Below the pieces are notes generated by a model. The model made no database searches, was not told the origin of the DNA, and saw only the letters and a list, made by a program, of their open reading frames with translations. From a bacterium (GTDB lineage Bacteria; Myxococcota_A; Bradymonadia; UBA7976; UBA1532), in assembly GCA_030426085.1 (NCBI GenBank), contig JAUHYW010000032.1, positions 1 through 64,000 of the forward strand: a stretch of DNA of 64,000 bases, read 5' to 3'. The position numbers and the translations under genes were made by a program. Positions 11,179 through 21,639 of the stretch are shown here, in pieces (the stretch's first letter is position 1; each line of letters starts with the position of its first letter).

Positions 11179-11976
11179 TCAGGCGGAGCGGTCGAGGATG
11201 CGCCGGACGTGGCCCAGGTAGCCGGCGCCGAAGAGGTGCACGTGCACCAGCACGAAGTAGAGCTGGTGGAACGGGATCGCCTCGGCGACCGCCCGGGGGA
11301 TCGGCCGCAGCGCGCGATAGGCGTCCCAGAAGCGGGGGCCGAAGCCGCCGAAGAGGTGCATCATCGCCAGATCGACGCTGCGTTCGCCGCGCCAGACCGA
11401 GGGGTCGATGAGCGCGGGGCCGGCGGCGCTCATCAGCACGTTGCCGCTCCACAGGTCGCCGTGCACGAGGCATGGGCCCTCGACCGGGGGGTCGAAGTCG
11501 GCCAGCAGGCGCTCGACGGCCGGGGCCATGGCGCCCAAGGTCGTTCGGGTGGCGGCGAGCAGCGGGTCGATGCGGTGGCGGGCCCAGAAGTCGGACCAGT
11601 CGGTGGAGGCCGGCGAGCGGGGCAGGGGGAACGACCCGAGGAAGATGGGGTCGGGCCAGCCGTAGCCGTCGGCCGGGGTGGCGTGCAGCCGGGCGATCTG
11701 CTCGGCGAGGCCCACCGGGTCGTCGGGGCCCGGCGGCAGGTGGCGCATCACGATGCCCTCGGGCCCGGCCCAGCGCACGGCCGGGACCCGCACCCCGGCG
11801 TCGCTCAGCGCCCGCAGGCCGCGGGCTTCGGCTTCGAAGAGGCCGGCCGGCGCCCGGGGGTGGCACTTCACGACCCACGCCCCGGCCCGGTGCACGTCGC
11901 TGATGCTGCCGCCGGAGAGGCGGGTCGTCGGCGTATCGGGCAGCCCGGCCCGGGCGAGGACGGCGGAGGGGGTCAC
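11179..11976 (-). CDS. Fructosamine/ketosamine-3-kinase family protein
   Basis: 265 residues of the FN3K/APH protein-kinase-like fold. The catalytic loop is LVHGDLWSGNVL and the metal-binding segment IDPSVWRGERSVDLAMMHLF, followed by GGFGPRFWDAYRA, the characteristic FN3K run. A glycine-rich start (LSGGSISDVHRAG) and a lysine strand AWVVKCH form the ATP lobe. FN3K enzymes phosphorylate sugar adducts on lysines, allowing deglycation. The GTG at 11974-11976, ten bases past the upstream stop, is the most likely start, though a longer amino end in the FadL gene is open. It is probably the last gene of the lipoprotein/FadL operon. Confidence 0.85.
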   Translation of the reverse strand: MTPSAVLARAGLPDTPTTRLSGGSISDVHRAGAWVVKCHPRAPAGLFEAEARGLRALSDAGVRVPAVRWAGPEGIVMRHLPPGPDDPVGLAEQIARLHATPADGYGWPDPIFLGSFPLPRSPASTDWSDFWARHRIDPLLAATRTTLGAMAPAVERLLADFDPPVEGPCLVHGDLWSGNVLMSAAGPALIDPSVWRGERSVDLAMMHLFGGFGPRFWDAYRALRPIPRAVAEAIPFHQLYFVLVHVHLFGAGYLGHVRRILDRSA

Positions 11977-11986
11977 CGGTGAGGCG

Positions 11987-13510
11987 TCAGAAGCGGATGC
12001 GGGCGGCGGCGGTGCCCCCGGCGAGCACGAGGGTGTAGGTCCCGTTGGCCAGATCGTAGTCGCTGCCGGTGTTCTCACGGGGCAGGACGTACTGGACGTG
12101 CAGGTCGAGCACCAGGTCGAGCAGGCCGCCGCCGATGAGGTCGATGGCCCCGAAGCCGTACCCCCCGGTCGCGCCGAAGACCACCCGCGGGCCGTCGGGG
12201 CTGGCGACGTCCAGCGTCGCGTCGGGGCTGGCCGCGGTGTGGTAGCCCAGCACGGCGCCGAGGAACCAGTCGTCGGTGGTGTACATGCCCCGCACGTCGA
12301 GGTGCCAGGTGTCGGACCAGTCGCGGGGCAGGTCGACGGCGGCGTCGGTGCCCAGGCCCAGCTCGGGCTGCACCAGCTCGTTGCTCGACAGCTTCGCCCC
12401 GAGCACGTCGACGACGCTGTTGAAGAACAGCGAGGCGTTGGCCCCCACGTTCCAGTTGTCGTCGATGCGCCAGTCGACGCCCATGTTGAGGTTGGGCGGC
12501 ACCGGGAAGGTGACCTCGGCCTCGCCGTTGACCTCGGCCGGGTACTTGAGGCCCTGGGCGACGAGGTCTTCGGTGAAGAGCGGGTCGTCCATGTCGAGGG
12601 TGAAGCCGCCCTCGAAGACGATGGGCACCCGGTGGGCGTAGCTGACGCCGAGCTGCACGTCGGGCAGCGGGGCGTAGGCGATGCCGACCCGGGCGGCCCA
12701 CGACCAGCCGAAGGCCGGGCCGATGTCGACCGGGCGGCTGAGCACGTCCAGCTCGCGCACCTCGGAGGGCGCGTCGGGCCCGAACGAGTTGGGCTGGCCG
12801 ATGGGCGGGTTGGCGAAGGCGTCCCGCATGAGCGGGGTGCTGGCCAGATCGACGACCTTGCGCAGCCGCACCTGACCCCCGACGAGCCCGCCGCCGACGC
12901 CGATGGAGAGGTTGTCGGCCGCCTTGTACGACAGCGCCGCCGCCGCCTCGACCGTCAGCAGCTCGACCGATTGCAGGGCCCACTTCTGGGGGCCGTCGTC
13001 GTCGAACTCGAGCATCGCGCCGAAGGGCACGAAGAAGCCCAGGCCCAGGCTGAAGTCGTCGTCCAGCTTGCGGGCGTAGAACATCTGCGGCGCGGGGGCC
13101 GGCACCGGGCCCAGCCGGATGAAGTCGGAGGCCGTCGCGCTGCCCGCGGGGCCGGTGCGCGAGGGATCCATGTCCTCCTCGGGCACCGGGGCCTTGAAGC
13201 GCAGGTTGTCGGGGTGCTGGTAGCGGCCGAGGCGCTCGCGGTCGTAGTTCACGTGCAGGTAGAGGATGGAGAAGCCGAGCAGCCACTCCGAGGTGCGCTC
13301 GTCCACCACCCGGGTGATCATCGCCGGGTTCCAGTAGACCGCGGCCGGGTCACGGGCCACCGCCGAGGACGAGCTGGTGCCCACCACCGGGGCCGACAGG
13401 CCGCTGGCGAAGGCCGGGCCGGCGGCCAGGGTCGAGGCCAGCACCATCGCCGCCAGCCGGGTCGCTGCCGGTCGGGTCGCGGTCGGTCGGGTCGCCGGGC
13501 GCGCCATCAT
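11987..13510 (-). CDS. OmpP1/FadL-type outer-membrane transporter
   Basis: 507 residues. After a long signal peptide (cleaved near FASG) comes the FadL hallmark region SGLSAPVVGTSSSSAVARDP then AAVYWNPAMI (N-terminal plug with WNPA). A beta-barrel of ~14 strands follows (GLGFFVPFGAMLEF, LSIGVGGGLVGGQVRL, WSWAARVGIAYAPLPDVQLG, GVDWRIDDNWNVGANAS), ending TAAARIRF with a C-terminal Phe. FadL proteins carry hydrophobic compounds laterally through the outer membrane. The ATG (13508-13510) overlaps the stop of the upstream lipoprotein as ATGA, so the barrel is translationally coupled to three paralogous lipoproteins. Confidence 0.92.
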   Translation of the reverse strand: MMARPATRPTATRPAATRLAAMVLASTLAAGPAFASGLSAPVVGTSSSSAVARDPAAVYWNPAMITRVVDERTSEWLLGFSILYLHVNYDRERLGRYQHPDNLRFKAPVPEEDMDPSRTGPAGSATASDFIRLGPVPAPAPQMFYARKLDDDFSLGLGFFVPFGAMLEFDDDGPQKWALQSVELLTVEAAAALSYKAADNLSIGVGGGLVGGQVRLRKVVDLASTPLMRDAFANPPIGQPNSFGPDAPSEVRELDVLSRPVDIGPAFGWSWAARVGIAYAPLPDVQLGVSYAHRVPIVFEGGFTLDMDDPLFTEDLVAQGLKYPAEVNGEAEVTFPVPPNLNMGVDWRIDDNWNVGANASLFFNSVVDVLGAKLSSNELVQPELGLGTDAAVDLPRDWSDTWHLDVRGMYTTDDWFLGAVLGYHTAASPDATLDVASPDGPRVVFGATGGYGFGAIDLIGGGLLDLVLDLHVQYVLPRENTGSDYDLANGTYTLVLAGGTAAARIRF

Positions 13511-15291
13511 CGGATCCTCTCGACGGTCAGGGACAGGCGGGCCCGCGACGGCTTGTCGCCGATGGTGAGCCGGTAGGCGCGGTCGCCCTCGTCGCCCACG
13601 AACAGCGTCATGCCCGGCTCGACCCGGATCTTGAGGTGGGTCGCGTCGTCGTCGACCCGCTCGCGGGTGGCGAGCTGCTCGGTCAGGTCGCGGTCGGCGA
13701 AGAAGCCGGGGTTGGCGTAGGTGTAGGGCCGGATGGGGGTGTCGCTGCGGTCGCGGGGGATGTCCTCCGGCGCGATGTAGAACAGGTAGTCGGCCCCGCC
13801 CGGCTCGTCGGCGCTGCGCACCCAGCGATAGAAGATGTCGGCCTCGCCCCAGGTGTTGTCGAAGAGCTTGGCCGCCACCTGCACCAGCGCGGTGGGATCG
13901 GCCTGCAAGCTGGCCTTGACCCCCGTGATGAGGTCCGACATCGACAGGCCGAGGGGCACGTCCTCGAGCACGAAGGTCACGTTGGCCTCGCCCTCGGGGA
14001 TGCCCCCGTCGTGCACCCTGATCTGGGCCACCTCGGTGATGAGATCCCAGATGTAGGTCGGCGGCGGCGGCGCGCCGACCCCGCCCGGCGTGGCGAGGCT
14101 CAGCCAGCCGTCCTCCACCGACATGGTCAGCAGGTCGCCGTCCTGGCCCGGGGTGCGGTCGTAGGTCCGGAACAGGTTGTGGTCCTGCCAGCGGGCGTAG
14201 GCCGCCTCGGCGACCACCCGCTCGAGGGTGTAGGGGGCCGCGGTCCACACCGCGCCGTCGCCCCGGGGGGCCGGCTGGCGGTTGGTGCCGGCCGGGATGA
14301 AGCGGGCGTCCTCGCCGAGCGCGAACTCCATGCGGGCGATGGTCGGGGGATCGGCGAACGAGCCCTCGATGTTCAGCCAGTCGGGGTTGGAGAAGTCGAA
14401 GAGCAGCTCGGGGTGATCATCGATGGAGTTGACCCCCGCGATGGCCGCCATCTCGAGGTCGATGCCCTTGTCCGGCGCGCCGTTGGTGTTCGCGTTGACC
14501 ACCATGTGCAGGTCGTCGCCGAAGAGCTGAGCCTCGACCGGGCCGGCGATGAAGCCGGGATGATAGACCCCATTGTCGGCGTACGGCCCGTAGCGCCGCT
14601 GGAGCGTGCGCAGGTCGCTCAGGACGTCGTCGAGGAAGACCGGCAGCTTGCCCGGCTCGACCGGGTACAACCCCTCGGGGTTGTCGGGGGTGCGCGGGCC
14701 GAGCCGCAGCCGGGCGTTGGGGTGGGAGCCGATGACGTGGGCCACCATCGCCGCCCCGACGTCGCCCGGGGCGAGGAAGGCCGCGTCCGGCGCGCCGCCG
14801 AGGGCCGCGCCGAGCACCTCGGGCACCGAGAAGCCGATCTCCGGGGCGAGTTGCAGCAGCGGGGCCATGGAGGTGCCGCTGAGATCGGCCGTCTGGGGCG
14901 ACATCTGGAGCAGCCGGATCAGGTTGCCCCTGGCCCGCTCGGCGGGGTCGGTCGCGTCGAGGTCGGGCGTCTCGGCCAGGATGGCGGCGATGGCGTGATC
15001 GATGAGCTGCGGGGCGCCGTCGGGCGTGCCTTGCAGATCGATGTCGGTCAGCCAGGTGCGCTCGAGCACCGACGGGGGGAGCTGACGCAGGTCGATGCGG
15101 GTCAGCACCTTCTGGAAGTCGGTGACGTCCAGCGGGGTGAACCGCAGCTCGACCTCGCGGGCCTCGCCGACCGCCAGCGGGGTCGGCGGCGGCGCCTCGG
15201 GCTCTTCTTCGACGCAGCCGAGGCCGAGCAGGCCGACCGCGAGCATCAGCCGGGCGCCGGCCCGGCGGGGCGACATCGACGGGCTGCACAT
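13507..15291 (-). CDS. Paralogous core lipoprotein, no Ig-like domain (paralogue C)
   Basis: 594 residues from the ATG at 15291, preferred over 15309 because GAGGAG lies ten bases before it. Lipoprotein signal ends LLGLGC (Cys26). The rest is the ~500-residue core shared with the next two genes upstream. Marks of the core are a helix ending in MSPQTADLSGTSMAPLLQL, HPGF (His244), the ELLFDFSNPDWLNIEG beta segment, an APYTLERVVAEAAYARW helix, and IWDLITEVAQIRVHDGGI (Asp428) then EGEANVTFVLEDVPLGL. It is shorter than its paralogues and starts straight into the core. The ATGA overlap ties it to the FadL-type gene. I do not recognise the family. Confidence 0.88.
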   Translation of the reverse strand: MCSPSMSPRRAGARLMLAVGLLGLGCVEEEPEAPPPTPLAVGEAREVELRFTPLDVTDFQKVLTRIDLRQLPPSVLERTWLTDIDLQGTPDGAPQLIDHAIAAILAETPDLDATDPAERARGNLIRLLQMSPQTADLSGTSMAPLLQLAPEIGFSVPEVLGAALGGAPDAAFLAPGDVGAAMVAHVIGSHPNARLRLGPRTPDNPEGLYPVEPGKLPVFLDDVLSDLRTLQRRYGPYADNGVYHPGFIAGPVEAQLFGDDLHMVVNANTNGAPDKGIDLEMAAIAGVNSIDDHPELLFDFSNPDWLNIEGSFADPPTIARMEFALGEDARFIPAGTNRQPAPRGDGAVWTAAPYTLERVVAEAAYARWQDHNLFRTYDRTPGQDGDLLTMSVEDGWLSLATPGGVGAPPPPTYIWDLITEVAQIRVHDGGIPEGEANVTFVLEDVPLGLSMSDLITGVKASLQADPTALVQVAAKLFDNTWGEADIFYRWVRSADEPGGADYLFYIAPEDIPRDRSDTPIRPYTYANPGFFADRDLTEQLATRERVDDDATHLKIRVEPGMTLFVGDEGDRAYRLTIGDKPSRARLSLTVERIR

Positions 15292-15298
15292 CGGGGGG

Positions 15299-17146
15299 TC
15301 ACTCCTCATCGGACATCACCGTCTGGCCGATGACCACGCGATCGCGCTGCCACGGGCCGATGTCGAGCACCACCGGCTCACCCGCCGCCGACGCGGTCCA
15401 GTAGCGGCGGCTCTCGGCGCCCAGGCTGACCGTGCGCACCCCGCCGCTGCCCTCGGCGAGCGCCTCGGCGGTGGGGTAGAGCGCCGGCGCGGTCTCGTCG
15501 ACCTCGAGCGCCGGGCCCTCGGCCAGCCAGATGGTCGCCTCGCTCGGCAGCACGCTGGGATCACCCACCATCAGCCCGACCAGGGTCTCCCGCTGCGCTT
15601 GCAGGATGGGGCGCATCGTATCGATGAGGCCCGCGGCGTCGAGGCCGATGGGCAGCAGCGGCAGCTCGAGGCGCACGTTGGCCTCGCCCTCGGCGAGCCC
15701 GCCGTCGTGCAGGCGGGCCTGGGCCACGTCGAGGATCATGTCCCAGATCCAGGCCGGCGCCGGCGGAGGGCCCAGATCGGCCACGACGTCCACCACGACC
15801 CAGCCGGCGTCCCAGGCGACGTTGGCCGCGCCTTCGATGCTGCCCAGGTCGTAGGACCACGCCTGCGGGCCGTCCCACAGCGGCTCGAACGCCCGGCGGG
15901 ACGCCTCGCCCACGATGCGCTCCAGGGTCCACGGGTCGGGCGGCAGCCCGGCGAGCGTGGCGTAGGCCTCGGGCAGCTCGGAGACCTCGAGGGTCAGCGC
16001 CGCTCGCGGCTCGGGGTGCAGGCCGACGATCTCGAACGTGGCCGGGTCCTCGAAGTCGAGGTCGAGGATCGCGGTGCCCGCCGGGGGCAGGTCGACGTGG
16101 CTGGCGAAGCCTTCGCCCGGCTTCATGCCCGGGCGCACCCCGACGTTGCCGCTGCCCCGCACGATCATGGCGAAGGCCGGGGTGAACAGCTCGCCGGCCG
16201 GCGGCTCGGCCAGGAAGCCGGGGTGTCCGCTGGGGTGGGCCCCGTAGCGGTCGAAGAGCGGCGCCAGATCGCCCAGCCCGTCGGCCAGGGTCACCGGCAT
16301 GCGCCCGCCGCTGTTGGCGGGGAAGCTGGGGTGCGAGGCGATGAGGTTGTCGATCATCACGTCGGCCACCAGCACCGGGTCGAGGAACCGCTCGCTGGGC
16401 GGCAGCGCGAGCATGTCGGAGAGGATGCGGGCCGGCGCCAGCCCGAGCTGGCCCGACAGATCCATCACCGCGGCCAGCCCGGTGCCGTCGAGGTCCGCCG
16501 TGTCGGGGCTCATCACCAGCAGCCCGGCGAGGTTCTCGGCGGCGACGCCGTCCAGGTCGAAGCCCCAGTCCTCGGGGTGCTCCAGGGCGGCGAGCGCGTT
16601 GAGCACCAGCGGGCGCAGATCCAGCTCGGTGAGGGTGATCTGCTCTTGCGCCGCGGGGGGCAGGAGCTGCTCGAGGGCCAGCCGGTCGAGGCGCAGTTCG
16701 ACGGTGTTGCCCGGCGGGGGCTCCATCAGCGTGACCCGGTCGCCCTGCACCACCCGGTGGGTCACCGAGGGGCCGGCGGGGCAGTCGCCCGGGGCCAGCG
16801 GGGTCAGGGTCAGGGTGTGCGGCCCGGGGGTGAGTTGCACCGTGGTGCGCCAGGTGCTGCCGCCGGCCGCGATGAGCGGCTCGCCCTCGTCGACCACCAC
16901 CTGAACCGCCCGGGCGCCGGACGCCGTACCGGCGATCTCCAAGAAGGCCTCGGTGTGCGGCGCGCCGTCCTCGGGGTAGACGAAGGCCGCGGTCGGCGCC
17001 GCCGAGGGGCAGGCGACCTCGTCCGGCGGCGTCTCGTCGGGCGTCGGTTCGGTCGACTCCTGATCGCACGCGCCCAGCATCAGGCCGGCGGCCAGCGCCG
17101 CGCAGGGCCAGAGCCGGCGGGCGGGCCGACGGGCGGGGGGTCTCAT
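15299..17146 (-). CDS. Paralogous core lipoprotein with one Ig-like domain (paralogue B)
   Basis: 615 residues. Lipobox LMLGAC (Cys27), then an acidic linker and a single Ig-like domain (~residues 50-130; AFVYPEDGAPHTEAFLEIAG, PHTLTLTPLAPGDC). The shared core follows with LTELDLRPLVLNALAALEH, MSPDTADLDGTGLAAVMDL, HPGFLAEP (His308), PWTLERIVGEASRRAFEP and WIWDMILDVAQARLHDGG (Asp481) then EGEANVRLELPLLPIGL. It lies 38 bp after paralogue A and 7 bp before the start of paralogue C, so one transcript is likely. Identity with its neighbours is low but motif order and spacing are the same. Confidence 0.88.
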   Translation of the reverse strand: MRPPARRPARRLWPCAALAAGLMLGACDQESTEPTPDETPPDEVACPSAAPTAAFVYPEDGAPHTEAFLEIAGTASGARAVQVVVDEGEPLIAAGGSTWRTTVQLTPGPHTLTLTPLAPGDCPAGPSVTHRVVQGDRVTLMEPPPGNTVELRLDRLALEQLLPPAAQEQITLTELDLRPLVLNALAALEHPEDWGFDLDGVAAENLAGLLVMSPDTADLDGTGLAAVMDLSGQLGLAPARILSDMLALPPSERFLDPVLVADVMIDNLIASHPSFPANSGGRMPVTLADGLGDLAPLFDRYGAHPSGHPGFLAEPPAGELFTPAFAMIVRGSGNVGVRPGMKPGEGFASHVDLPPAGTAILDLDFEDPATFEIVGLHPEPRAALTLEVSELPEAYATLAGLPPDPWTLERIVGEASRRAFEPLWDGPQAWSYDLGSIEGAANVAWDAGWVVVDVVADLGPPPAPAWIWDMILDVAQARLHDGGLAEGEANVRLELPLLPIGLDAAGLIDTMRPILQAQRETLVGLMVGDPSVLPSEATIWLAEGPALEVDETAPALYPTAEALAEGSGGVRTVSLGAESRRYWTASAAGEPVVLDIGPWQRDRVVIGQTVMSDEE

Positions 17147-17184
17147 GGCGGCTCCGTGGACGGCGGTGAGCATCGATCGGGCCC

Positions 17185-20100
17185 TCATCGGGGCGCCCGG
17201 TACCAGAGCAGGACCCGGTCGGCGTCGACGCGGGCGACGTCGAGCCGATGGGTGCCCTCGGTGGTGCGCACGTACAGGGTGGGGGGCGCGGGCGCGGCGG
17301 GATCGTCCATCACGACGCCCCGCAGACCGCTGGGGGCCGGGACGTCGAGCCGATCGCCGCCCTCGGGGCTGTCGTAGATGCCGACGTCGGGGTCGGCATC
17401 GCAGCGCGCTTCGCCCGGGACCCGGTCGGCGGCATCGGGGACGTGGGCCCGGCCCACCCGACACGGGCTGTGCATCAGCCACATGCGGCGGTCGTCGCCC
17501 GCCCCGAAGCGGTCGAGGTAGACGTCCACCGGGCGCGCGATGTCGGTGTAGGCCCCGAGCAGGGCGTCGGCGAGCGTCTCGCGCTGGAGCTGGAGGTTCT
17601 GGCGGACCTCGCGCTCGATGTCCGCGTCGGTCAAGCCGACCGAGACCCCTTCGAGGCCGAAGACCACGTCGCCCTCGCCCTCGGGGACCGCGTCGATGAA
17701 CGGGGCCCCGTCGGCGCCGCCCTGGCGCACGCCGCTGTCGCGCAGCCGGGCCTGGGCCACTTGCAGGACGACGTCCCACATGTAGCCCGGATCGGGCAGC
17801 ACGGTGACGCCGGGCGGCATCCACAGGCGGAACCAGCCGAGGGGGACCGGCATGCACGCCCCCTCGTAGCAGATGTCGCCCACGTCGCACTCCGGCGTCG
17901 ACCGGCACTCGACCGCGGCTTCGGGCAGGCACTGCCCGAGCAGGCACAGCTCGCCCTCGGCGCAGTTGCGGTCGCGGGCGCAGATGTTCTGCTCGGCGGG
18001 CACGCAGCGGTTCTGGGGGTGGCACTCCATGCCCGCGGGGCACTCCACGTCGTCCTGGCAGAAGAGCGCGTCGATGGCCTCGATGTGCTCGGCCACCCCC
18101 CGGGCGTTCGGCGCGACCCCCGACGTGCAGTCGGGATCGGCGGCGTCGACGCAGTCGTAGCCCACCGTGCCGATGGCGATCTCGGCGAAGTCGGTGCCCC
18201 CGTTGGGGTTGAGGAAGAGCGCGGCGCCCTCGGACAGCCCGCTGCACAGGTCGCAGCCGGTGCGCAGATCGTCGAACGCGTAGCGCGACGAGAGCGCGAC
18301 GACGTGCTCGAGCAGGTAGGGCTCGAAGGCCCACACGTCGCTGTCGCCGCGGCCGAGCGGCAGCATGCTCTTGCCCGGGACCGCGGCGATGTCGGCCTCG
18401 ACCATGCGGAAGTCCATCGCCACCTCGGGGGCGGGGGCGATGCCCTCGAGGGTGAACGACTCGATCTCGAGGAACTCCAGCTCGACCACCGGCCCGTCGG
18501 GCGCCCGATCGGCGAAGTAGGTCTTGGTCGGGGCCTCGAGGTCGAGGCCGTCGTACAGCCGCAGGTTGCTCTGGAGCGTCAGGCCCATGCGGAAGTCGTT
18601 CGTCAGCACCGCCGCCTCGACGTAGCCCGCGATGAAGCCGGGGTGCTCGCCGGGCACCGCGTCGAAGCGCTCGCCGAGCGGGAGCATGTCGTTGAGGCCG
18701 TCGTCGAGGGTCACCGCCAGCGCGCCCGAGGGGGTCGTATTGGGGTGGGTGCCGATCAGGGCCTCCTTGATCGCGGCGACGAGGGGCTCATCGCCCAGCA
18801 TGACCTCTTCGAACTCGATCCCCAGCGCCAGAGCCAGGATCTCGCCGAACGGGATATCGAGGATGGGCAGCGCCAGCTCCGAGGCGCCCTCCAGGTCGGT
18901 GCCGACCACGTTGACGTTGGCCGGGGTCATTGTCAGCAGGCCCCACAGGTTGCGCTCGGCGGGGCCCCACTCGGGCGGGCAGTCGAAGAGGGACGCCCCG
19001 TTGGCGAAGTGCGGCCCCTCCCAGTTGCGGCCGCAGGCGGCGCGGATGGCGCCGAGGGCGTTCTGCACCATCGGGCCCGGGTCGAGCTCGATGAGGTTGG
19101 TGGTGCGCTTGACCTCGTCGGGGAACATCTCGATGACCCCCGTCTTGTCCAGATCGAGCGACACCTCGCCGCCCGGCTCGCCGGGCGCGTTCAGCACCAG
19201 CGGAGTGATGGCGCCCCAGCCGTCGTCGACCTCGACCGAGATCAGATCCCGCCCGATGAGCCCGTCGGCGTCCCGGCTGATGACCCGCAATCGGTTGTCC
19301 CCGGGGGCGAGGGCCAGGTTCACCACGAAGTCGTCGCCCTCGGGGGCCGCCTCGAACAGCGGCCCGTCGACCGGGCCGGCGGTGACCTGGACCAGCGGCG
19401 CGTCGGCCTCGACGGTCAGCCGGAAGCCCTGACGCAGTGCGCCGACGGTGGTGCCGTCGGCCGGGTTGCTGGCGACGAGCCGGGGCGGATCATGCGGGGG
19501 GGCCGCCCGGGAGACGACCCGGGCCCGGGCCTCGCCCACGTTGCCCGCGAGATCGGTCGCCTGGACCACGTAGGTCACCTCGGCCGCCGGGGGCACCGGC
19601 GCGTTCAGCGACCAGCGGGCGAAGAAGTCGGCGGTGCGGGCCACGCCGATGCCCAGCTCGACGCCGTCGACCTCCATGAGCACCACCACCCGGGCGATGG
19701 CGGTGTCGTCCTCGGCGGTGCCCTCGACCAGCAGCCGGCCGACGTTGGTCTGCAACCCGTCGACCGGGGCGGCGATGGTCACCGTGGGCGGGGTGTCGTC
19801 ATCGGGCATCGGCCGGTCGAGCATGGCCTCGGCCACCCCGGTGTTGCCCATGCCGTCGAACGCGGTCGCCTGCAATCCGACCGGCCCCACCTCGGGCACC
19901 TCGACGGTGGCCTCCCACTCGGTGAATCCGCGGCCGATGGGGGCCACGTCATAGGGGCCCGAGGCGCCGACCGCGATCTGGATGGCGGTGACGCCCCGAT
20001 CGTCCTCGGTGGTGCCGGCCAGCCGCACGAGGCCGGGCTCGATCTCTTCGGTGAGGTCGATGGTGATGGCGGGCGGGGCGTCGTCCGCGGGCCCTTCGGG

Positions 20101-20223
20101 CACCACGGCGGCGTCGCTCCAGTCGGCGAGCGGCGGATCATCGCCGAGCGGATCGCGGACCGTGCCCGAGTCGACATCGCAGCCGCAGATCAACGCGACT
20201 GCGACCAGGGTGAGCGTACGCAT
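17185..20223 (-). CDS. Paralogous core lipoprotein with three Ig-like domains and a Cys-rich insert (paralogue A)
   Basis: 1012 residues, first gene of the operon. Lipobox ICGC (Cys15). Three Ig-like/Bacterial-Ig modules (~50-125, ~135-235, ~240-330; each with a PP.v.i..P.dG start and a GT..DD..i..v pattern) precede the shared core. Core marks are MTPANVNVVGTDLEGASELA, HPGFIAG (His527), a VWAFEPYLLEHVVALSSRYA helix and YMWDVVLQVAQARLRDSG (Asp829), then GEGDVVFGLEGVSVGL. Between the last two, Cys722-Cys790 forms a 12-cysteine insert of three four-Cys modules (C..D.EC..G.EC....C). A GGGAGCCTC Shine-Dalgarno precedes the ATG. Function unknown; the architecture suggests a surface-exposed binding protein. 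Confidence 0.9.
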   Translation of the reverse strand: MRTLTLVAVALICGCDVDSGTVRDPLGDDPPLADWSDAAVVPEGPADDAPPAITIDLTEEIEPGLVRLAGTTEDDRGVTAIQIAVGASGPYDVAPIGRGFTEWEATVEVPEVGPVGLQATAFDGMGNTGVAEAMLDRPMPDDDTPPTVTIAAPVDGLQTNVGRLLVEGTAEDDTAIARVVVLMEVDGVELGIGVARTADFFARWSLNAPVPPAAEVTYVVQATDLAGNVGEARARVVSRAAPPHDPPRLVASNPADGTTVGALRQGFRLTVEADAPLVQVTAGPVDGPLFEAAPEGDDFVVNLALAPGDNRLRVISRDADGLIGRDLISVEVDDGWGAITPLVLNAPGEPGGEVSLDLDKTGVIEMFPDEVKRTTNLIELDPGPMVQNALGAIRAACGRNWEGPHFANGASLFDCPPEWGPAERNLWGLLTMTPANVNVVGTDLEGASELALPILDIPFGEILALALGIEFEEVMLGDEPLVAAIKEALIGTHPNTTPSGALAVTLDDGLNDMLPLGERFDAVPGEHPGFIAGYVEAAVLTNDFRMGLTLQSNLRLYDGLDLEAPTKTYFADRAPDGPVVELEFLEIESFTLEGIAPAPEVAMDFRMVEADIAAVPGKSMLPLGRGDSDVWAFEPYLLEHVVALSSRYAFDDLRTGCDLCSGLSEGAALFLNPNGGTDFAEIAIGTVGYDCVDAADPDCTSGVAPNARGVAEHIEAIDALFCQDDVECPAGMECHPQNRCVPAEQNICARDRNCAEGELCLLGQCLPEAAVECRSTPECDVGDICYEGACMPVPLGWFRLWMPPGVTVLPDPGYMWDVVLQVAQARLRDSGVRQGGADGAPFIDAVPEGEGDVVFGLEGVSVGLTDADIEREVRQNLQLQRETLADALLGAYTDIARPVDVYLDRFGAGDDRRMWLMHSPCRVGRAHVPDAADRVPGEARCDADPDVGIYDSPEGGDRLDVPAPSGLRGVVMDDPAAPAPPTLYVRTTEGTHRLDVARVDADRVLLWYRAPR

Positions 20224-20341: not shown

Positions 20342-21478
20342 CTACACCCGGCGTCGGCGGATGAGGAGCAGGAGCAGGAGAGCCAGCCCGAAGAGCGGCC
20401 GCGGCCCCGACGGCCGTGACGCGGGATCCACCGCGCAGCCGCCCACGTACTCCACCCGCTGCGCGCCGTCCGGGATGAAGCCGGCCACCTCGGGATCATC
20501 GACGCAGCGCCCGTCGTCCCCCAGCTCGCAGGCCTTGGTGGTCGTGCAGTAGTAGCCCGTCTCGTCGTCGATGAAGCCGCACGCCCGCCCATGCGCCCCG
20601 CAGTCCACCGAGGCGACCCGCCCGCCCTCGTCGCACCACTCGGCGGTGTTGCCCACGCAGCGCCCTTGGAAGCTCAGCACCCCGCACGGCCCGCCGGCCT
20701 GCACCAGCGGCTCGGTGGCGGCGACGGCGGCCATCAGCCAGTCGCCGAGCAGGTCGAGCCGGGTGAGGTAGTCCCGCCCCACGCAGCTGTCGTCGCCCCC
20801 GTGCTCGACCCCGAGCAGCACCGGGGCGCCGGCGGCGTTGAGCGTGATGACCGGCCCCCCCGAGTCGCCGAAGCACAGCCCCTGCAAGCCCCGCCCGTCG
20901 ACCACCACGAACTCGGGGTCGATCTCGGCGAGGGTCACGCTGGCGAAGAAGCGCCCGCTCACGCTGGGGTCGCCGGTGTCTCCGTAGCCGGCGACCTCGA
21001 CCTGCCGCCCGACGATGGAGTCGCCGTCGGCGCCGCCGAGCGGGGTGCGGTTCACCGGCATCGGCTCGACCTCGGGCACCTCGGCCACCGCGTCGCCGGC
21101 GAGGAAGAGCAGGGCGGCGTCGATCTCGGGGTCGGGGTACTCCGACACCTGGGCCAGCGGGAAGAGCGCCACCGGATCGGCCGGGTCGAGGCCGATGCCG
21201 AAGGCGACGGCGTCGGGGCCCATGCCCCGGGTGCAGTGGGAGGCGGTGACGACCACCCGCGAGGCGACCAGCGTGCCGGTGCAGAAGGGGTTGCTCGGGT
21301 TGCCCGGGGTGTAGACGAAGCCGATGGCGAGCTGCTGCCCCTCGGTCAGCGGCACGATCTGGGGGGTGCGGGTGCCGTTTCGGATGGCCTGACCCGCCTC
21401 GCCGATGGGATCGGCGACGGCGGGCGCGGCGATCAGGGCGAGCGCGAGCGAGGCGATTGCGAGGGGCCGGTGGTGCAT
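20342..21478 (-). CDS. Secreted trypsin-like serine protease with C-terminal membrane/Arg anchor
   Basis: 378 residues. Signal peptide (LALALIAAPAVA), then an S1 chymotrypsin-fold protease with a complete triad: His81 (VVVTASHC), Asp120 (PEIDAALLF) and Ser206 (GDSGGP). A Cys-rich tail (~residues 255-335; CGVLSFQGRCVGNTAEWC) leads to a C-terminal cassette: GGCAVDP, a hydrophobic run LFGLALLLLLLI and RRRRV. This layout resembles MYXO-CTERM sorting signals. The protease would thus be held at the cell surface or in the envelope. It lies 118 bp upstream of the paralogue operon, same strand. Confidence 0.9.
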   Translation of the reverse strand: MHHRPLAIASLALALIAAPAVADPIGEAGQAIRNGTRTPQIVPLTEGQQLAIGFVYTPGNPSNPFCTGTLVASRVVVTASHCTRGMGPDAVAFGIGLDPADPVALFPLAQVSEYPDPEIDAALLFLAGDAVAEVPEVEPMPVNRTPLGGADGDSIVGRQVEVAGYGDTGDPSVSGRFFASVTLAEIDPEFVVVDGRGLQGLCFGDSGGPVITLNAAGAPVLLGVEHGGDDSCVGRDYLTRLDLLGDWLMAAVAATEPLVQAGGPCGVLSFQGRCVGNTAEWCDEGGRVASVDCGAHGRACGFIDDETGYYCTTTKACELGDDGRCVDDPEVAGFIPDGAQRVEYVGGCAVDPASRPSGPRPLFGLALLLLLLIRRRRV

Positions 21479-21639
21479 GGCGAGCTCATGATACGCAATG
21501 CCCGTGCCCGGTGGCGAGCGGCCTCGGGATGACGCCGGCCGGTCGCCGGAGGGGCTCGGTGGGGCGGCGGGGCCTCGGCCCGTTGGGGCCGGCAGACCCC
21601 AGCCCGTGGCCCGGCGGTCCCGGCCCGCAGCCCGCCCGA

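Follow-up and report, generated by a model that had tools for sequence, protein, structure and literature searches.

The window (the whole stretch of DNA that was analysed, 64,000 nucleotides) carries on its minus strand a compact cluster in which three lipoprotein genes, termed here A, B and C, run into gene D, encoding a FadL-type barrel (Table 1). This arrangement of three paralogous lipoproteins and a barrel, proposed in an earlier note made from the sequence alone, was borne out by BLASTP, lipobox and Pfam analyses. C is joined to D by an ATGA overlap. The spacings of 38 bp, 7 bp, the ATGA overlap and 10 bp given in the earlier note hold for the starts chosen there, but other plausible starts give overlaps: B has an alternative start at 17188, which creates a 4-bp overlap with A, and C has one at 15291. 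The genes of the window are tightly packed under every start choice.

Table 1. Genes of the cluster and its immediate neighbours in the window.
Gene	Positions	Strand	Description
Trypsin-like serine protease	20342-21490	minus	MYXO-CTERM sorting tail; lies immediately upstream of lipoprotein A
Lipoprotein A	17185-20223	minus	1012 aa; Ig-like N-terminal domains and shared core with cysteine-rich insert; A lineage in tree
Lipoprotein B	15299-17146	minus	615 aa; one Ig/FN3-like N-terminal domain and shared core; B lineage in tree
Lipoprotein C	13507-15309	minus	600 aa; core only; C lineage in tree, which almost all uncut clusters contain
D, FadL/Toluene_X-family outer-membrane barrel	11987-13510	minus	507 aa; system-specific clade; PF03349 E 3e-35
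Fructosamine-kinase-like (FN3K-like) gene	11179 to about 11976	minus	Follows the FadL gene, co-directional; Fructosamin_kin PF03881 E 4e-47

The cores of A, B and C are about 30% identical. By BLASTP, C and B align over 417 aa with 33% identity (E 3e-38), while A matches B with E values of 2e-23 to 3e-23 and C with E values of 5e-20 to 2e-20. The existence of a core common to the three proteins is therefore upheld, although its length, previously put at about 450 residues, comes nearer to 520 aligned columns in the family alignment; the motif positions reported for it were confirmed in their original numbering. Residues H196-P197, H250-P251-G252 and W421 (C numbering) are invariant in 88 out of 88 aligned members, and a third histidine, C H433, is conserved in 79 of them. 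A motif and hydrophobicity scan detected a lipobox in all three lipoproteins of the window and in 77 members of the family. The named domains found in the family are limited to the Ig-like N-termini of the A- and B-types and to a weak match in A. Pfam places Big_7 in the N-terminal part of A (E 8e-6), and the cysteine-rich insert, located within the A core at residues about 720-790, resembles Dickkopf_N/DUF7107 weakly.

The earlier note had named a match to an already named family as evidence against its proposal, and no such match was obtained. The core of the window proteins had no match in Pfam, NCBIfam or the PADLOC defence-system profiles, that of 30 family members had none in Pfam, and no match was obtained among PDB sequences. 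Polyubiquitin entries returned by the PDB search were rejected as an artefact in which eight repeats, each with an E value of about 9, had been summed. Judged by these searches, the lipoprotein core belongs to an unnamed family. No plasmid carriage was found.

In Myxococcus xanthus, Lys at position +2 is the inner-membrane signal of lipoproteins, and Ala at +7 is their matrix signal (PMC3222651). Among the 77 readable lipoprotein N-termini of the present family, Lys at +2 occurs in none, which argues by the M. xanthus rule against inner-membrane retention, and Ala at +7 occurs in 11. These N-termini are consistent with an outer-membrane location, and the Ig-like domains and cysteine-rich insert of A and B would fit an extracellular position.

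D scores 122 bits against PF03349, well above the curated cut-off of 29.7 (Pfam), and on this evidence is a clear member of the FadL/Toluene_X family. When aligned to E. coli FadL (FadL/TodX/OmpP1, PF03349), D keeps the NPA motif of the N-terminal hatch, of which N61 and P62 are at least 95% conserved in the D clade. In contrast to E. coli FadL, this clade displays long conserved inter-strand segments of its own (for example PPIxQxNxFGxDAPxxVREL, DMxDxxFTxDL and SPDxTxDxxSPDG) as well as dedicated lipoprotein partners; no lipoprotein gene is present in the stretch read around E. coli fadL. Going by the same alignment and the topology of E. coli FadL, the PPIxQxNxFGxDAPxxVREL segment would lie in extracellular loop L4. 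A myxobacterial FadL, M. xanthus MXAN7040, is needed for palmitate uptake, a fadL mutant showing no palmitate incorporation (PMC4048283). The M. xanthus outer-membrane lipoprotein MXAN7039 may adjoin it, an adjacency read from the tag numbers only.

The distribution of the core was determined by a profile search of 379 sampled Myxococcota genomes, 237 of which are better assemblies. The core was found in 35 of the 379 genomes (27 of the 237 better assemblies) and in 9 of 96 relatives, with at least two copies almost everywhere the assembly allows. The fetched loci were then scanned with two profiles, one for the core and one for FadL. The earlier note had expected the two to co-occur in other genomes, and this proved to be so: leaving solo lipoprotein copies aside and counting the window, a FadL of one particular clade is present in 34 out of 34 Myxococcota core clusters that are not cut by a contig end. 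Conversely, this FadL clade was found in 19 of the 237 genomes, all 19 of which carry the core, and the next-best other FadL in this sample had an E value of 8e-16. Fourteen of 16 further core genomes also carry the clade, bringing the total to 33 of 35 core-bearing genomes, and in the two genomes where it was missed (G163 and G252) a contig end interrupts the cluster.

Two main arrangements were observed, A-B-C-FadL and FadL-A-C. In some lineages the FadL gene precedes A-C, and in others it follows A-B-C or A-C. Neighbouring genes mostly overlap or are at most 25 bp apart, a 4-bp overlap being the commonest, and a few gaps reach 165 bp; these figures come from readable starts and are indicative, since nearness to the preceding gene was among the criteria for choosing a start. 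At one locus (L093), a distance of about 2.2 kb separates FadL from the lipoproteins.

In a tree of 89 members, the A-, B- and C-type lineages are separate and each crosses taxonomic families. Nearly all uncut clusters combine a single A-type protein with one or more of the C type, B being found in the A-B-C-FadL clusters. The proposed set of three lipoprotein accessories holds for the window and some lineages but is not universal, many clusters having two. The tree indicates that the three lineages predate the family-level splits and are anciently diverged partners rather than recent duplicates. The earlier suggestion of a single duplicated adhesin is not supported by the same tree, which sets A and C apart as lineages that diverged long ago and have been maintained in pairs. 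The clusters L086 and L093 gained their third lipoprotein by another route, a duplication of the C type that was independent of the A-B-C form.

The FN3K-like gene, which the earlier note listed behind the FadL gene, adjoins the cluster in the same genus only and does not belong to the conserved module. The protease and other neighbours likewise recur in that genus only among the fetched loci. Scattered Ser/Thr kinases were the only recurrent neighbours beyond it, and no metabolic neighbour pointing to a ligand was observed.

Solo lipoprotein copies away from FadL were present at four loci (L083, L085, L091 and L092), each beside unrelated genes and in a genome that carries the FadL clade as well. 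Such copies suggest that the lipoprotein may act alone, which counts against a module built on the FadL channel. Those of L085 and L092 adjoin similar DUF1501-type proteins and a protein with a cytochrome-like C-HN motif, that of L091 adjoins an alpha/beta hydrolase and that of L083 lies near an enoyl-CoA hydratase and a short-chain dehydrogenase. The window genome also encodes several other FadL-family proteins. One of those inspected (L165, G000:C87, 2936-5526) overlaps a co-directional lipoprotein gene whose product has no Pfam match, and this locus is possibly a second, unrelated FadL-lipoprotein pair.

What is inherited together is a genetic unit in which one FadL clade is joined by two or three paralogous lipoproteins. 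The barrel and the lipoproteins very probably form one outer-membrane machine, for which we infer a physical complex from the genomic pattern. The multi-subunit lipid-handling outer-membrane machine of the earlier note is strongly supported as a multi-component system by the strict co-occurrence, the two gene orders and the overlapping genes, whereas its lipid handling would be carried over from the FadL family. Given that barrels of this family transport hydrophobic molecules and that an M. xanthus FadL, perhaps of a different clade, is needed for palmitate uptake, the likeliest role by analogy would be the partner-assisted uptake of a hydrophobic ligand.

We regard as evenly balanced the chances that the cluster encodes a dedicated outer-membrane module in which lipoproteins seated on the FadL channel capture a hydrophobic ligand and hand it over. 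A and C, with B in some lineages, would sit in the outer membrane, more likely at the surface than in the periplasm, and would interact among themselves and with the barrel, the conserved loops of D being the probable contact sites. They would capture a hydrophobic molecule, for instance a long-chain fatty acid or a comparable compound, and deliver it to the FadL channel; lateral diffusion would then carry it from the channel into the membrane. Channels of the FadL family are generally regarded as passive and as consisting of a single protein. More tentatively, and with the balance tipping somewhat against it, a FadL channel in stable complex with a heteromeric set of paralogous lipoproteins, which would select a hydrophobic substrate and pass it on to the channel, might constitute an undescribed kind of outer-membrane transporter.

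The main alternative, which we consider rather unlikely, is that the barrel, instead of being a transporter, anchors surface lipoproteins that aid the assembly or display of other proteins of the outer membrane. BamG plays such a part with BamH-K, and PorV does so in type 9 secretion. BamG is a Bacteroidota FadL homologue that binds the surface lipoprotein BamH, and together with BamH-K in the BAM complex (and the homologues BamG2 and BamH2) it provides the closest precedent and the sole described layout that we found combining a FadL-family barrel with several surface lipoproteins (PMC12578637; PMC12611786). The strongly conserved loops of the D clade could likewise be a docking surface. However, BamG is bound to BamA and is distinguished by an N-terminal extension of about 10 residues that threads its lateral opening (PMC12578637). 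No such extension is present in the D clade, whose N-terminus before the NPA motif does not exceed that of E. coli FadL in length. BamH-K have differing folds, whereas the lipoproteins described here are a paralogous set encoded in one gene cluster and, unlike those of the BamH-K system, have a core without a PDB sequence match. BamG is also near-universal and probably essential in Bacteroidota (PMC12578637), whereas the present system occurs in less than a tenth of the sampled genomes.

A second alternative arose from structure prediction. The AF2 model of C, built from 16 sequences, has a pLDDT of 79 and a pTM of 0.65. Foldseek returned nothing significant for it (best E 0.39), whereas in VIA the top six matches were HmuY-type or HmuY-like lipoproteins, with Z scores of 8.3 to 5.9 followed by 4.2, although a Z of about 8 lies within the stated background of the tool. 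For B (pLDDT 72), the list of structural matches was filled by the Ig/FN3-like domain and not by the core. The ranking for C, together with its invariant H196 and H250 and the largely conserved H433, would suit lipoproteins of HmuY-like fold that bind haem or metal and supply the FadL barrel with a porphyrin or a similarly flat, hydrophobic ligand. We judge this improbable: the HmuY-type alignments cover 112-127 residues, about a fifth of the protein, at an rmsd of 3.4-4.0, the HmuY profile PF14064 had no match in 30 core members at E 10 while finding three HmuY domains elsewhere in the window genome, and profile-profile comparison of the core with HmuY gave a probability of 4%. Furthermore, HmuY works with a TonB-dependent receptor and not with FadL, so that the likeness to the P. 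gingivalis haem uptake pair HmuY-HmuR lies in the general idea of a lipoprotein with an outer-membrane barrel and in a weak similarity of fold in the predicted core, a mere lead that is not strong enough to be relied on. HmuY proteins occur widely in this class, and the three domains of the window genome lie in tandem in one open frame (G000:C39:40436-41803; L108, L109 and L110).

It is very improbable, finally, that the lipoproteins are surface adhesins or matrix proteins merely sharing an operon with the FadL gene, a reading suited by the Ig-like domains of A and B, the cysteine-rich insert of A and the Ala at +7 in 11 of 77 N-termini but opposed by the strict reciprocal association with a single FadL clade, seen in many families and in both gene orders, by the absence of Ig domains from C and by the core being the conserved part.

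A FadL channel in stable complex with heteromeric lipoproteins would be the FadL counterpart of lipoprotein-lidded barrels such as SusCD. If one FadL clade occurs only together with two or three dedicated lipoproteins, partner-assisted forms would exist in the FadL family too, as they do in SusCD and in the BAM of Bacteroidota. An unannotated protein family also gains a defined partner, and the cluster offers a clean genetic target in culturable relatives.
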